Below, in pieces: positions 1,993-62,598 of a DNA stretch of 64,000 nt; the stretch's first letter is position 1; each line of letters begins with the position of its first letter. The notes beneath the pieces were generated by a model that saw only the letters and a list, made by a program, of their open reading frames with translations, had not been told where the DNA came from and ran no database searches. A program made the position numbers and the translations under genes. This DNA is from Alcaligenaceae bacterium (GTDB taxonomy: Bacteria > Pseudomonadota > Gammaproteobacteria > Burkholderiales > Burkholderiaceae_B), in the NCBI GenBank assembly GCA_013416435.1, contig JACCEN010000001.1:248001-312000 (forward strand), in the 5' to 3' direction.

Positions 1993-2843
1993 CGCATTCC
2001 GATTCCCGCAGACACTACGCCGTCGTCGGCAACCCCATCGCGCACAGCCGATCGCCCTTCATACATGAAGCCTTCGCCCGCCAGACCGGCGTATCCCTCA
2101 GCTACGATCGCATCCTGGCGCCGCTGGACGGCTTTGCCGCCACGGTGCGCGAATTCTTCGATCTGGGCGGCGCCGGCCTGAACATCACCGTACCGTTCAA
2201 AGAGCAGGCCTATCTGCTCGCCGAGGACCACTTGAGCGCCAGGGCACGACTGGCGGGCGCCGTCAACACTTTGTGGATGCACGACGGCGTGCTGCATGGC
2301 TGCAATACGGACGGCGTCGGCCTGATGAACGACCTGATCCGGTTGGGCCATGCGCCCGCCGGCCGCAGGGTATTGCTGATCGGTGCGGGCGGCGCCGCCA
2401 AGGGCGCCGTGCTGCCCTTGCTCGAAGCGGGGTGCGCAGCGTTGCGCATCGTCAACCGGACCCCGTCCCGCGCCATGGACCTCAGGACGCGGCTGATTTC
2501 CCAACTGCCCGAAGCCGCCCCTCGAGTGACGGCGGGCGGACTGGACGACGCAGCGGGAGAATGGGACATCGTCATCAACGCAAGCTCAAGCAGCCTGGGC
2601 GATGATCCGCCTGCGCTGCCCTCCGGCATCTACGCCGGCGACGCGCTGGCCTACGACATGGTCTACGCCTCCGGCGAAACACCCTTCATGCGGCAGGCGC
2701 AAGCGCAAGGCGTCCGCAACCGTGCCGACGGCCTGGGCATGCTGGTCGGTCAAGCCGCCGCAAGCTTCGCCATCTGGAATGGCGTGACACCGCAGCTTGG
2801 TCCTGTCCTGGAGGACCTGCGACGCCTCCTGCAAGCGGCATAG
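1989..2843 (+). CDS. aroE: Shikimate dehydrogenase (NADP+)
   Basis: AroE reduces 3-dehydroshikimate to shikimate in the common aromatic amino acid pathway. The 284-residue length is normal. The N-terminal substrate domain shows VVGNPIAHSRSPFIHE (shikimate-binding serines) and the catalytic lysine in NITVPFKEQA; the NADP-binding domain shows the glycine-rich IGAGGAAKGA and the NRTPSR motif that recognises the 2'-phosphate of NADP. The start is a GTG that overlaps the stop of the TonB-like gene by four bases (GTGA). The next gene, mtgA, begins 22 bases after the stop. Confidence 0.95.
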   Translation: MTHSDSRRHYAVVGNPIAHSRSPFIHEAFARQTGVSLSYDRILAPLDGFAATVREFFDLGGAGLNITVPFKEQAYLLAEDHLSARARLAGAVNTLWMHDGVLHGCNTDGVGLMNDLIRLGHAPAGRRVLLIGAGGAAKGAVLPLLEAGCAALRIVNRTPSRAMDLRTRLISQLPEAAPRVTAGGLDDAAGEWDIVINASSSSLGDDPPALPSGIYAGDALAYDMVYASGETPFMRQAQAQGVRNRADGLGMLVGQAAASFAIWNGVTPQLGPVLEDLRRLLQAA

Positions 2844-2865
2844 CGCGCGTGGACGAGTGGACGGA

Positions 2866-3588
2866 ATGGCCAGGAAAAGCATGAGCATGGGCAAGATGGC
2901 GGGGGCGACGCTGCTGTTCGCCTTCGCCGCCCTGCTCCTGTATTTTTTCGGCCTGTTCGTCATGGTGCTGTGGCTGAGCGTGCGCGACCCCGGCAGCAGC
3001 GCCTTCATGAAAGCTACGCTGGCGGAGCTGCGTGCCAACGATCCGGAAGCGCAGCTGAAATACCAGTGGGTGCCCTACGACGACATCAGCCCGCACCTGA
3101 AGCGCGCCGTGGTGGCATCGGAGGACGCGAACTTCATCGACCATGACGGCGTCGAATGGGAAGCCATACGCAAAGCCTGGGAGTACAACCGCCGGCAAGC
3201 GGAGCGCGGCGCCAATCGCATGCGAGGGGGTTCGACCATCACCCAGCAGTTGGCCAAGAATCTTTTCCTGTCCGGTTCAAGATCCTATGTGCGCAAGGCG
3301 CAGGAACTCGTGCTCACCTATATGATCGAATCCGTCATGAGCAAGCGCCGCATTCTGGAGCTTTACCTGAACGTCGCGCAATGGGGAACCAACGTCTTCG
3401 GCGCGGAGGCGGCCGCTCGCCATTACTATAAAACCAGCGCCGGCCGGCTGGGCGCCCAACAGGCCGCCAGGCTGGCTTCCATGCTGCCCAGGCCCGCCTT
3501 TTACGACGAGCATGGCAGCACCGCGTATTTGAATTCACGCACCGGCACCATTCGCAAGCGCATGCATATGGTGGAAATTCCCGAGTGA
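2866..3588 (+). CDS. mtgA: Monofunctional peptidoglycan glycosyltransferase MtgA
   Basis: A 240-residue GT51 family enzyme that polymerises lipid II into glycan strands at the outer face of the inner membrane. There is one N-terminal membrane segment (about residues 12-34). GT51 motifs are present: AVVASEDANFIDHDG with the catalytic glutamate, RGGSTITQQLAKNLFL, and KRRILELYLNVAQWG. I chose the ATG at 2866 because it puts the basic residues MARKS directly before the membrane helix and avoids overlapping aroE; an in-frame start at 2797 would overlap aroE by 47 bases. The association with aroE and the preceding TonB-like gene is a common Burkholderiales order. Confidence 0.93.
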   Translation: MARKSMSMGKMAGATLLFAFAALLLYFFGLFVMVLWLSVRDPGSSAFMKATLAELRANDPEAQLKYQWVPYDDISPHLKRAVVASEDANFIDHDGVEWEAIRKAWEYNRRQAERGANRMRGGSTITQQLAKNLFLSGSRSYVRKAQELVLTYMIESVMSKRRILELYLNVAQWGTNVFGAEAAARHYYKTSAGRLGAQQAARLASMLPRPAFYDEHGSTAYLNSRTGTIRKRMHMVEIPE

Positions 3589-5659: not shown

Positions 5660-5839
5660 GGGGTCTGACCCCATGCGGGGTCAGACCCCGACTATCCCGC
5701 TCCTTGGTGAGGGGTCAGACCCCATATGGGGTCTGACCCCAGCGCCGTCTCAGGTCTTGGGGTCAGACCCCGTACGGGGTCTGACCCCGACATCATGATC
5801 AAAAGCCGAGGGGGCGGGCCCCGCATGGGGTACGACCCC
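5660..5839. repeat. Palindromic repeat block (three full 30-bp copies and one degenerate copy)
   Basis: Copies lie at 5660-5689, 5711-5740 and 5759-5788; a degenerate 29-bp copy lies at 5811-5839. Each full copy is two 13-bp arms (GGGGTCAGACCCC and its complement) around a 4-bp spacer, here ATGC, ATAT and GTAC. The first copy has the arms in swapped order (T in the left arm, A in the right). The block sits between the convergent genes apaH and plsC, and the last two copies lie inside the plsC reading frame. There is no adjacent T-tract, so this is not a classical intrinsic terminator. Confidence 0.95.
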
Positions 5840-9439: not shown

Positions 9440-9469
9440 GGGGTCAGACCCCGTACGGGGTCTGACCCC
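9440..9469. repeat. 30-bp palindromic repeat (plus degenerate half upstream)
   Basis: A full copy with the GTAC spacer; the two arms are perfect complements. A degenerate half-arm (GGGTCAGACTCC) lies just upstream at 9418-9429. It stands between the tandem genes thiE and hemL. Confidence 0.95.
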
Positions 9470-10830: not shown

Positions 10831-10955
10831 GGGGTCAGACCCCATGCGGGGTCTGACCCCGGCTTTATTGCTTCGACAGGGTCAGCCCCCCGTGGGGTCT
10901 GACCCTACTCGTTCCATTGCTTGATAGGGTCAGACCCCGTACGGGGTCTGACCCT
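10831..10955. repeat. Cluster of three palindromic repeats
   Basis: Copies lie at 10831-10860 (spacer ATGC), 10878-10906 (29 bp, imperfect) and 10926-10955 (spacer GTAC). In the second and third copies both outer ends changed together: the left arm begins AGGG and the right arm ends CCCT, which preserves pairing. The cluster fills the gap between the convergent genes hemL and the RidA gene. Confidence 0.95.
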
Positions 10956-18991: not shown

Positions 18992-19021
18992 GGGGTCAGA
19001 CCCCGTACGGGGTCTGACCCC
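18992..19021. repeat. 30-bp palindromic repeat
   Basis: A perfect copy with GTAC spacer between the tandem genes marR and argJ. It is preceded by CTAGGGCCTGTTAACGCCGC (18968-18987), which matches the sequence around the thiE stop at 18 of 20 positions. Confidence 0.95.
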
Positions 19022-20338: not shown

Positions 20339-20423
20339 GGGGTCAGACCCTGTTCAGGGTCTGACCCCCGCTTCATGAGTCGATGCCTGATCTGGGGTCA
20401 GACCCCGTACGGGGTCTGACCCC
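20339..20423. repeat. Two palindromic repeats
   Basis: Copies lie at 20339-20368 and 20394-20423, between the tandem genes argJ and rplU. The second is perfect with GTAC spacer. In the first the inner bases changed on both sides: the left arm ends ACCCT and the right arm begins AGGGT around a GTTC spacer, again keeping the two arms complementary. Confidence 0.94.
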
Positions 20424-23672: not shown

Positions 23673-23702
23673 TGGGTCAGACCCCGTGCGGGGTCAGACC
23701 CC
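23673..23702. repeat. Palindromic-arm repeat with both arms in the same orientation
   Basis: Between the convergent genes proB and the Lrp-type regulator. Both 13-bp arms read GGTCAGACC around a GTGC spacer, so this copy is a direct repeat of two near-palindromes rather than one full inverted repeat. Each arm alone is still nearly self-complementary. The first base is T instead of G. Confidence 0.9.
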
Positions 23703-27033: not shown

Positions 27034-27143
27034 GGGGTCAGACCCCACACGACGAGGGGCCTGACTCCACACGATGAGGGGTCAGACCCCACGGGTCTGA
27101 CCCCATACAACGAGGGGTCGGACCCCATGCGTGGTCCGACCCC
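27034..27143. repeat. Array of single 13-bp arms with short spacers
   Basis: Six arm-like units lie at 27034, 27056, 27078, 27092, 27114 and 27131. Several are separated by similar 9-base spacers (ACACGACGA, ACACGATGA, ATACAACGA), giving a 22-base period for the first three. The last pair uses GGTCGGACC and GGTCCGACC with ATGC spacer, a matched substitution. The array lies between the convergent XRE and OmpA-like genes. Confidence 0.9.
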
Positions 27144-35987: not shown

Positions 35988-36105
35988 GGGGTCAAACCTT
36001 TTCGTTCTTCTGGTATGGGGTCAGACCCCGCGTTCTTCTGGTATGGGGTCAGACCCCGTACGGGGTCTGACCCCTCAAAATTCCTAACGGGGTCTGACCC
36101 CTCAA
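35988..36105. repeat. Palindromic repeat block with nested tandem duplications
   Basis: A full 30-bp copy lies at 36045-36074. Its left arm with 14 bases of left flank is perfectly duplicated (28-bp units 36003-36030 and 36031-36058), and its right arm with right flank is also repeated (36061-36078 and 36088-36105, 27-base period). A degenerate arm lies at 35988-36000. The block fills the gap between the convergent genes mutY and rodA. Confidence 0.95.
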
Positions 36106-43953: not shown

Positions 43954-45407
<1,454 letters not shown>

Positions 45408-45413
45408 CCCTTT

Positions 45414-45599
45414 GGGGTCGGACCCCGTACGGGGTCCGACCCCATCGCTCAAACAGTCCCGGCCTTGCCTCCCTGGATCGCAGCCCAAACCGGCGCCTCC
45501 GAAAACCGCCCTCAACCCCTATACGACAAGCTGACCTGCATCCGTCCTAGCTGGACCGCCCAGGATCCAGGGGTCAGACCCCGCAAGGAGTCTGACCCC
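45414..45599. repeat. Two palindromic repeats after gatB
   Basis: The copy at 45414-45443 has arms GGGGTCGGACCCC and GGGGTCCGACCCC with GTAC spacer: the central A-T pair of the family is replaced by G-C on both sides, so complementarity is kept. The copy at 45570-45599 has a perturbed right arm (AGGAGTCTGACCCC region). Nothing recognisable lies in the 126 bases between them. Confidence 0.93.
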
Positions 45600-45629
45600 G
45601 TCACATCGCCACAGTTCGAGCAGCGATGA

Positions 45630-45855
45630 GGCCCGCCGGCGGCTGATGGGGTGAGGAGGGCGACTTCGGGCACCGCCGGCCAAGGACTGGCTGGCGGGGA
45701 GGCAGGGCGCAGCTGTTTGAGCCCACGCCTTCGGGCCACTGGCCCGAGTGGGCGAGTTCTGCGCCCGCCCCGGCAGCCCGGCCTTGGACGGGAAGTCCTG
45801 CGCCAGCAGGACCGGTGCACGGGAGCCCGACTGCTCCAGCAGCCGCCGGCGGGCC
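45630..45855. other. 226-bp structured element bounded by 16-bp perfect inverted repeats
   Basis: The ends GGCCCGCCGGCGGCTG (45630-45645) and CAGCCGCCGGCGGGCC (45840-45855) are exact complements; pairing continues inward for a few bases after one mismatch. Inside are three hairpins: CCGCCGGCCA/TGGCTGGCGG at 45673-45697 (one G-T pair), a three-tier hairpin at 45705-45766 (GGGCGCAG/CTGCGCCC, GCCCAC/GTGGGC, CGGGCC/GGCCCG), and GTCCTGC/GCAGGAC at 45795-45812 with a 4-base loop. No convincing reading frame is present. It could be a structured RNA or a non-autonomous mobile element. It lies in the only gene-free stretch longer than 300 bases (45408-45926). Confidence 0.7.
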
Positions 45856-45926
45856 GCGTTAGATACTAAAAACCGCGATCTTTGATCGAGCAGGTGCAGG
45901 CTACGCCGGTTCTTAAAGCATTGGGT

Positions 45927-46598
45927 TCAGACCCCGTACCGATTCCGATACTCCGCAACGGCGGACCTATGCTCCGCCAGCGACGCATCGCCCTCCAGCA
46001 CGGCCATGATATCCGCCAGCGAGGCGATGCTCACCACCGGCATCCCGTAAGTGAGCGCCACGTCCTGCACCGCCGAATGCGCCGACAAGGCCTCGTCCGG
46101 GCCTGCGCGTTCCATGCGGTCCAGGGCGATCAGCACGGCGGCCGGCTCTGCGCCCGAGGCGCGGATGATGTCCACGGATTCGCGCACCGACGTGCCGGCC
46201 GTGATCACGTCATCGATGATGACGACCTTGCCCTGCAGCGGCGCGCCGACCAGCACCCCGCCTTCGCCATGATCTTTTGCCTCTTTGCGATTGAACGCGA
46301 AAGGAACGTCGCGCCCGCTCAGGGCTGGATGCCCCGCCAGCGCCGTGGCGGTCGCCGCCGCCAGCGGGATGCCTTTGTAGGCGGGACCGAAAAGCATATC
46401 GAACTGGACACCGGAGTCGATCAGCGCCTGGGCGTAGAACTGTGCCAGCCGCCCGACTGAACGCCCTGTGTTGAACAAGCCGGCGTTGAAGAAATACGGA
46501 CTCATGCGTCCGGACTTGACTTTGAACCGACCAAAGCGCAGCACACCTTGATCAAGGGAAAAACGAACGAATTCGGAACGGTTGGAAGAATCGGCCAT
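45927..46598 (-). CDS. pyrE: Orotate phosphoribosyltransferase
   Basis: PyrE makes orotidine monophosphate from orotate and PRPP in pyrimidine synthesis. The 223-residue protein has the family start ([20 protein letters not shown]), [13 protein letters not shown], the flexible loop [11 protein letters not shown], and the PRPP signature [13 protein letters not shown]. It ends YRNRYGV, close to the YREEFGV end I recall for E. coli. The codons for YGV and the stop (TACGGGGTCTGA) match the inner half of the palindromic repeat, which may be chance or a half copy. Confidence 0.96.
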
Positions 46599-62467: not shown

Positions 62468-62598
62468 GAGGTCAGACCCCATGCGGGGTCTTACCCCGGC
62501 CTTGCGGACCCCGGCCCTGGACCAAGGGTCAGACCCCGTACGGGGCCTCACCCTCGCACCGTCGAAGAGGGGTCGGACCCCGAATGGGGTCCGACCCC
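62468..62598. repeat. Cluster of three palindromic repeats
   Basis: Copies lie at 62468-62497 (spacer ATGC, imperfect), 62525-62554 (spacer GTAC, imperfect right arm) and 62569-62598 (spacer GAAT, arms with GGTCGGACC and GGTCCGACC, a matched substitution). The cluster lies between the convergent genes yceI and the diguanylate cyclase. Confidence 0.94.

Follow-up and report, generated by a model that had tools for sequence, protein, structure and literature searches.

The window, a 64,000-nucleotide stretch of the genome of an Alcaligenaceae bacterium, carries at positions 45630-45855 a 226-bp element belonging to a dispersed family of repeats that keep one fold while most of their stem letters change. 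The best reading, to which we give roughly even credence, takes the element for a mobile repeat that is non-coding and non-autonomous, with a + strand that folds into a conserved rod bearing a side hairpin; a structure-reading enzyme acting in trans would most likely move it, or recognise it, in the form of folded single-stranded DNA.

The element between gatB and pyrE folds into a rod with one side hairpin

The gap between the converging genes gatB (+, ending at 45407) and pyrE (-, ending at 45927) is 519 bp long. It houses the complete element and the following features.

45414-45443, no strand assigned: REP of the RAYT-associated type, GGGGTCGGACCCC-GTAC-GGGGTCCGACCCC, belonging to a separate repeat system
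45448-45640, - strand: remnant of a left partner element (opposite orientation, about one third of the core) with the pair spacer, starting just past the REP
45570-45599, no strand assigned: second REP of the same RAYT-associated type, within the pair spacer
45630-45855, + strand: whole 226-bp element, a family member; + is the strand with the conserved folding
45630-45645, + strand: P1 outer stem, 5' arm (terminal inverted repeat), with an interrupted continuation as far as 45675
45676-45699, + strand: P2 long stem, 5' arm; family-wide, both sides have changed in 22 of 23 P2 pairs
45696-45706, + strand: conserved stretch GGGGAGGCAGG (family form GGGGATGCAAG), including the P2/P3 bulge
45705-45766, + strand: P3 and P4 hairpin with the conserved internal loop CTGTTTGA (45713-45720) / GAGTT (45754-45758)
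45768-45791, + strand: P2 long stem, 3' arm
45787-45812, + strand: conserved stretch GGGAAGT and side hairpin P5
45840-45855, + strand: P1 outer stem, 3' arm, with an interrupted continuation starting at 45813
45856-45873, + strand: 3' tail GCGTTAGATACTAAAAAC, common, with variations, to most copies in the same genome

An earlier note on this DNA had described perfect 16-bp terminal inverted repeats, and these were recovered at 45630-45645/45840-45855; when one mismatch was allowed, the repeats extended to 20 nt (95%). The hairpin at 45705-45766 has exactly the three perfect tiers (45705-45712/45759-45766, 45721-45726/45748-45753 and 45731-45737/45741-45747) and the loops CTGTTTGA and GAGTT that the note had given it. 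The closed multi-branch fold with three internal hairpins that had also been proposed held in part: the fold is branched and enclosed by the 16-mers, but it contains one three-tier arm and one side hairpin (P5, arms 45795-45801/45806-45812). The architecture is that of one long rod (P1-P2-P3-P4) with P5 as its single side hairpin, forming a three-way junction. The fold exceeds chance expectation, since the MFE of the 226-bp element (-165.7 kcal/mol) lies far under that of 200 dinucleotide shuffles (-123.9 +/- 4.9; z -8.5). The minus strand of the element folds more weakly, with -149.4 against -165.7 kcal/mol.

The element belongs to a family spread over the order

The genome that contains the window (G000) gave 13 BLAST matches to the element, with six near-full copies, the window copy counted, at 84-100% identity. 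When 41 genomes were searched, matches were obtained in six, G000 included, and the congener G001 had three copies at 79-80%. The impression recorded in the earlier note that CTGTTTGAGC...GCGAGTT hairpins recur in Burkholderiales proved right: the pattern TGTTTGAGC-(0-28)-GCGAGTT gave 109 matches, distributed over 48 of the 200 genomes searched in the order, and some of them are due to chance because the reversed-pattern control gave 26. The hairpin letters of these matches are often different yet still paired. The exact pattern is not matched in G000 itself, where P4 exceeds the allowed length by one base.

Two covariance models were built, R1 from 12 sequences and the broader R2 from 78. Matches to R1 occurred in 39 of 81 genomes of the family and in 24 of 43 genera (37 candidates scored per genome), and matches to R2 in 38 of 120 genomes of the order and in 28 of 79 genera (25 candidates scored per genome); these counts take in genomes whose copies built the models, and they are lower bounds as few candidates were scored. 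At the level of the phylum, R2 was run on 299 genomes with just 10 candidates scored in each, and six had the element: G000, two further members of the order and three members of other orders in the class; this count, too, is a lower bound. When the number of scored candidates was raised to as many as 150 per genome, R1 gave at E 0.01 11 matches in G000 (two of them opposite-strand shadows of real copies), 24 in G003, 24 in G019 (one of them weak, with E above 0.001) and 37 in G235 (two weak). The R2 model is specific, since even at E 0.1 it gave no match in 441 kb around lexA from 80 named genomes. The LexA protein of G000 itself resembles those of Alcaligenaceae most, reaching 80% identity with Pusillimonas relatives, which agrees with a place in the Burkholderiales.

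The fold is conserved while the letters change

In a free MAFFT alignment of 12 sequences, whose structure was taken from RNAalifold and extended by hand, change on both sides was seen in 39 of 56 model pairs. With 77 distinct sequences it was seen in 55 of the 56 pairs, and 93.0% of cells were paired, a percentage that leans towards structure as this alignment was fitted to the model. Sliding the partners by 1-3 columns left 32.5-40.5% of cells paired, and none of 500 shuffles reached the observed level. The conserved pairing among homologues that the earlier note had proposed to look for is very strong.

Fixed letters lie mostly in the loops (GGGGATGCAAG, CTGTTTGA/GAGTT and GGGAAGT) and in a few junction pairs. 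TGTTTGA and GAGTT are invariant in 31 elements that were themselves chosen by that motif, whereas loop variants occur among elements found by the model instead. The outermost repeats vary between lineages, and the elements have mainly their loops and their fold in common. A kink-turn reading of CTGTTTGA/GAGTT was rejected by inspection: the GA/GA is present, but the flanking bases lack the required pairing. Arm-copying, that is templated correction of the stems, was rejected as well. Comparison of G235 copies that were 90% alike or more gave 93 pair changes compensated on both sides and 108 one-sided ones (69 mismatches and 39 G.U), and since one-sided changes outnumber compensated ones, ordinary selection is enough.

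The + strand is the folded strand and its loops favour single-stranded DNA

The best 67 of 77 aligned matches, read at register-safe pairs only, gave 71 G.U and 22 A.C mismatches. A set of 62 deduplicated sequences was obtained from 78 rows by leaving out four opposite-strand rows and then removing sequences more than 85% alike. G.U exceeded A.C in 31 of these sequences, A.C exceeded G.U in 9 and the two were equal in 22, while purine-purine mismatches outnumbered pyrimidine-pyrimidine mismatches in 46 and the reverse held in 3. Because the mismatch types differ between the strands, the + strand is the folded one. This asymmetry separates the strands, not RNA from single-stranded DNA, as G.U and G.A are favoured mismatches in RNA too. 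The low share of G.U was given no weight, because the loci contained just two tRNAs as a yardstick for it.

To extract loops, a finder was used that selects the longest Watson-Crick stem closing a loop of 3-8. Most loops are triloops, in P5 (42 of 52 unique hairpins) as well as in P4 (120 of 169 unique interiors); the P4 interiors were collected by a motif search and may include chance matches, and the loci examined are biased to Alcaligenaceae. GNA triloops closed by C-G account for 27 of the P5 and 24 of the P4 loops, and non-GNA triloops make up most P4 loops (94/169), C(GGG)G being the commonest (31/169). GNRA-type loops were found in 2 of 52 P5 hairpins and in none of the 169 P4 interiors, and TNCG loops in neither set. 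GNA loops with G-C pairs are known to give DNA mini-hairpins of extraordinary stability; GCGAAGC, for example, melts at 78 C (PMC4686876). Since triloops dominate and RNA-type tetraloops are rare, these loops favour folded single-stranded DNA over RNA.

The strongest competitor is nevertheless a structured non-coding RNA, or an RNA processing or termination signal, that was spread with a mobile element and whose RNA fold has a cellular function. The covariation is of the kind typical for structured RNAs, G.U is preferred to A.C on one strand, the asymmetric loops are conserved and the + strand is the more stable. We still consider such an RNA unlikely. Its copies would be many and different within one genome (24 matches in G003, 37 in G235) and would lie in gaps between different genes, and RNA-type tetraloops are almost lacking. 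Moreover, 9 of the 11 solo elements located between tandem genes run antisense, so most would not be read as mRNA 3' ends this way round. The Rfam scan suggested in the earlier note produced no fitting family: the window had no family at gathering score and only below-gathering matches, also under relaxed thresholds, and the sole match in 11 loci with relatives was an SRP RNA beside one element. The guide-like character that the note had considered found no counterpart either, as no guide-like feature was seen in the element. Its loops look more like those of DNA hairpins than of RNA hairpins.

Empty and occupied sites point to mobility

The gene pyrE was sought in 28 element-bearing genomes, and gatB adjoins it in 17 of them. 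The gap is about 20-105 bp long in 12 of these 17, and in the congener G001 it measures 55 bp and is empty. It is longer in the other five, two of which (G017 and G224, from two other genera) hold an element of their own there, in opposite orientations. Most simply, the window element would have arrived after the split from G001 and the gatB-pyrE gap would be a repeated target. No junction at the empty site was alignable enough to give the exact insertion point, and no target-site duplication was visible by eye in the flanks of 20 aligned G235 copies.

Dispersed copies and an empty orthologous site, by which mobile repeats are generally recognised, are thus both present. Where the earlier note had left the choice between a structured RNA and a non-autonomous mobile element, the second is well supported, because copies are dispersed, the orthologous site in the congener is empty and two other genera have elements in the same gap. 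Plasmids and phages gave little: blastn against plasmids with the window element as query gave no match, and with three relatives as single queries it gave one record with the element, a Variovorax 2.48-Mb replicon in which the element occurs as a pair with no annotated feature beneath it. Six further plasmid records (Caballeronia, Ilyobacter) match only a short downstream hairpin, and blastn against phages with one relative as query found no element. This near-absence from plasmids and absence from phages in single-sequence searches is odd for an actively moving element and counts against active movement.

Elements often occur as back-to-back pairs

Close neighbours, defined as lying within 1.5 kb of each other in the R1 match lists, were arranged as nine (-,+) and one (+,+) in G003 and as (-,+) in all three cases in G019, with the 3' sides outward. 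The pair is not obligatory, since G235 with its 37 matches has no close pair. Twelve of 16 spacers compared have a related spacer in the same genome, so the pair has often moved or been copied as a unit. The left remnant in the window is 81% identical over 193 bp to an intact pair of the same genome in locus L178 (1919-2073, -, and 2243-2396, +), from L178:2021 onward.

Some pairs enclose genes. In locus L133 of G003 (2039-2554), a PaaA2-type antitoxin and a ParE-type toxin lie in the spacer between inverted elements, and the ends of this spacer are common to other units; other pairs enclose two GNAT acetyltransferases (G021), an 8xMP membrane protein (G175) or orphan genes. Only for L133, through its shared spacer ends, is there support for a gene being part of the unit and not just enclosed by it. 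It is conceivable, if doubtful, that each back-to-back pair forms the two ends of a mobile unit and that these units make up an unnamed class in the Gammaproteobacteria in the wide sense. They would be able to carry toxin-antitoxin, acetyltransferase and membrane-protein cassettes, and a putative recombinase would recognise them purely from the shape into which their single-stranded DNA folds. At 2138-3343 of locus L342 (G091), a CAP12/Pycsar-type TIR-domain protein is encoded between nrdB and a close element pair. This wide gap, with nrdB and the TIR protein, was not counted as cargo because it has its own close pair at one side.

Perfect terminal inverted repeats, dispersed copies, the lack of a protein and inverted paired copies that look like a transposon with long ends could also be explained by a MITE of an ordinary DDE transposon, whose double-stranded terminal repeats are cut. 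This explanation is distinctly unlikely, as the outermost repeats depend on the lineage while mainly loops and fold are shared, the aligned G235 flanks show no target-site duplication, and a Pfam scan found no transposase in nine spacer ORFs.

Elements lie mostly at gene 3' ends and carry tails that differ between lineages

Among 40 loci from G003, G019 and G235, the elements lie in 19 convergent, 19 tandem and 2 divergent gaps, as classified with a simple, unvalidated gene caller. Elements of G235 typically end in ...GCG(C/T)CTTAAGAAC, facing the gene 3' end, and several G235 loci have extra tail copies in direct repeat. CTYRAGAAC occurs 19 times in 65 kb of G235 loci, 14 times at the element end, 4 times at 50-300 bp downstream and once elsewhere, and it does not occur there on the reverse strand; the exact motif stands at the element end in 14 of 20 loci and is missing from this position in 6. 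Most copies of G000 have GCGYTAGATACTAAAAAC-like tails without CTYAAGAAC, and one of them (L006) has CTCAAGAAACC at the position at which other lineages have ...CTYAAGAAC. Comamonadaceae-type elements and those of other orders have a different tail with an GGTTACTTTC hairpin.

Further repeats were noticed around the elements. In L061-L065 and L205-L217, a second hairpin GGTTACTTTC...GAAAGTAAC lies just 3' of the element, and alone it was matched repeatedly on Caballeronia replicons. Past the element 3' end in L009 and L014 (G001), a unit of about 43 bp with the tail GCGTCAAGAAACC was seen by eye in tandem. In G235 loci such as L157 and L170, the DNA upstream of the elements contains, by eye, degenerate direct repeats (about 25-28 bp) together with small palindromes and runs of AAAAAAC.

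The bias towards gene 3' ends and the strong hairpins would fit a terminator or insulator that is merely kept at gene ends without mobility. We regard this as improbable: the same gatB-pyrE gap is occupied or empty among relatives, several elements sit, as judged by eye, beyond an apparent terminator hairpin, and termination does not need conserved internal loops.

Neighbouring REPs belong to a separate system

The REP core GGGGTCNGACCCC was matched 18 times in 30 kb of G000 element loci and not at all in the element loci of G001, G003, G019 and G235 (28, 51, 25 and 65 kb, respectively). The nearby GGGGTCAGACCCC REPs are therefore a separate RAYT/REP system nested with the element. An apparent third REP copy at 45921-45948 was rejected, as it is largely the native pyrE end and the congener has the same TCAGACCCCGTACCG there. 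More RAYT-type cores GGGGTCNGACCCC, mostly complementary pairs and some of them clustered, were seen in the window at 5660-5788, 9440-9469, 10831-10860, 18992-19021 and 20394-20423, and further ones at 23690, 27034-27126, 36017-36101 and 62569-62598.

That the element is itself part of this RAYT/REP (BIME-like) system of its genome is very improbable and largely refuted: although REPs of the form GGGGTCAGACCCC-GTRC-GGGGTCTGACCCC flank and interrupt the element, and the only Y1_Tnp (RAYT) gene found in G000 (L131, ~1235-1990; G000:C7, ~166.6-166.9 kb) is bracketed by two such GGGGTC REPs, a Y1_Tnp gene was present in 4 of 7 element-bearing genomes tested and absent from G001, G019 and G235, and the REP core is confined to G000 loci among the five genomes compared.

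Comparison with known systems and proposed mechanism

The folded single strand is thought to be the substrate in REP, BIME and REPIN repeats, which are moved by RAYT transposases of the Y1 HUH type. Like the element, these repeats are extragenic, palindromic, dispersed, often arranged in back-to-back pairs and, according to the description in PMC3733652, mostly located downstream of coding regions. They differ in that REPs are 20-40 bp long, whereas the element family spans 150-230 bp, has a three-way fold and stems that are not conserved in sequence, and occurs in 3 of 7 genomes without RAYT. Against the definition of a REP as a palindrome of 20-40 bp with a GTAG/CGTC end tag, the element measures 226 bp and has no end tag; the element and its tail lack GTAG, CGTC and CTAC, and a single GACG, which reads CGTC on the opposite strand, lies in the interior.

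Integron attC sites are recombination sites at which, too, one folded DNA strand is read, its stem letters being free and its unpaired bases fixed, and small genes (a ParE-type toxin pair, acetyltransferases) also lie between some element pairs. The element units, however, are inverted pairs and not direct repeats. The R boxes of attC are GTTRRRY/RYYYAAC, and membership of the element was rejected by inspection, as the tail CTYAAGAAC (AAGAAC) misfits RYYYAAC. IS91 and ISCR elements have their ends beside GAAC/CAAG tetranucleotides, which recalls the ...CAAGAAC tail, with CTYRAGAAC in 14 of 20 G235 loci; most copies of G000 end otherwise, one with CTCAAGAAAC. An IS91-type Y2_Tnp, suggested by this tail, was found in only 1 of 15 element-bearing genomes and was rejected as mobiliser, and RAYT was rejected since it is lacking in 3 of 7. 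The mobilising enzyme was not found among these candidates, as neither RAYT (7 genomes) nor IS91-type Y2 (15 genomes) is consistently present.

Several repeats of related bacteria may touch or belong to the element family, which was set beside them by their descriptions only. The beta-proteobacterial repeat element BRE was published as 75-91 bp long, its copies often following one another in tandem, directly or after a few bases (Hot et al., 2011; PMC3110155). By the same description it resembles the element in being repeated, usually intergenic and present in Alcaligenaceae and Comamonadaceae, and differs from it in its shorter length and tandem arrangement; the description includes no fold (PMC3110155). 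R2 matched in none of the 80 lexA loci. Ten of these loci bear a Bordetella name, one of them coming from a metagenome assembly recorded as B. parapertussis (65% LexA identity). A script with unvalidated parsing reported no tandem repeats in these loci. The stem-loop families Bor-1 and Bor-2 of Bordetella bronchiseptica are described as intergenic and structured, Bor-2 as a 167-bp model with 17 sequences (PMC2267715), and the Burkholderiales-1 motif as structured (PMC2864571). As far as these descriptions of older repeats allow the comparison, the element family would be a kind of extragenic hairpin repeat read by structure rather than something categorically new.

For the reading as a non-autonomous mobile repeat, we propose that an enzyme supplied in trans would read the folded single-stranded + strand. 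It would recognise the shape and a few fixed loops (GGGGATGCAAG, CTGTTTGA/GAGTT, GGGAAGT), so that stem letters would be free to change in pairs. Joining of the 3' side would take place at a short tail or beside it, shortly past the 3' ends of genes; in several lineages this tail is CTYAAGAAC. The unit that moves would often be a back-to-back pair, with a spacer of roughly 160-1000 bp able to hold a small gene cassette, solo elements being common too. Of the pair in the window, only the right element is complete; its left partner is mostly deleted, and the remnant starts just past the REP. The analysis demonstrates the family, its conserved fold, the asymmetry between strands, the empty site, the location at gene 3' ends and the pairing of elements. 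We infer that the substrate is single-stranded DNA instead of RNA, that recognition takes place in trans and that mobility continues.

The covariance models are a ready means for masking or studying these repeats. A 56-pair fold that is kept in dozens of genera while most stem letters swap points to a reader of nucleic-acid shape and not of sequence. With this reader identified, RAYT/REP and integron attC would gain a counterpart, and a common class of unannotated intergenic repeats would be explained.
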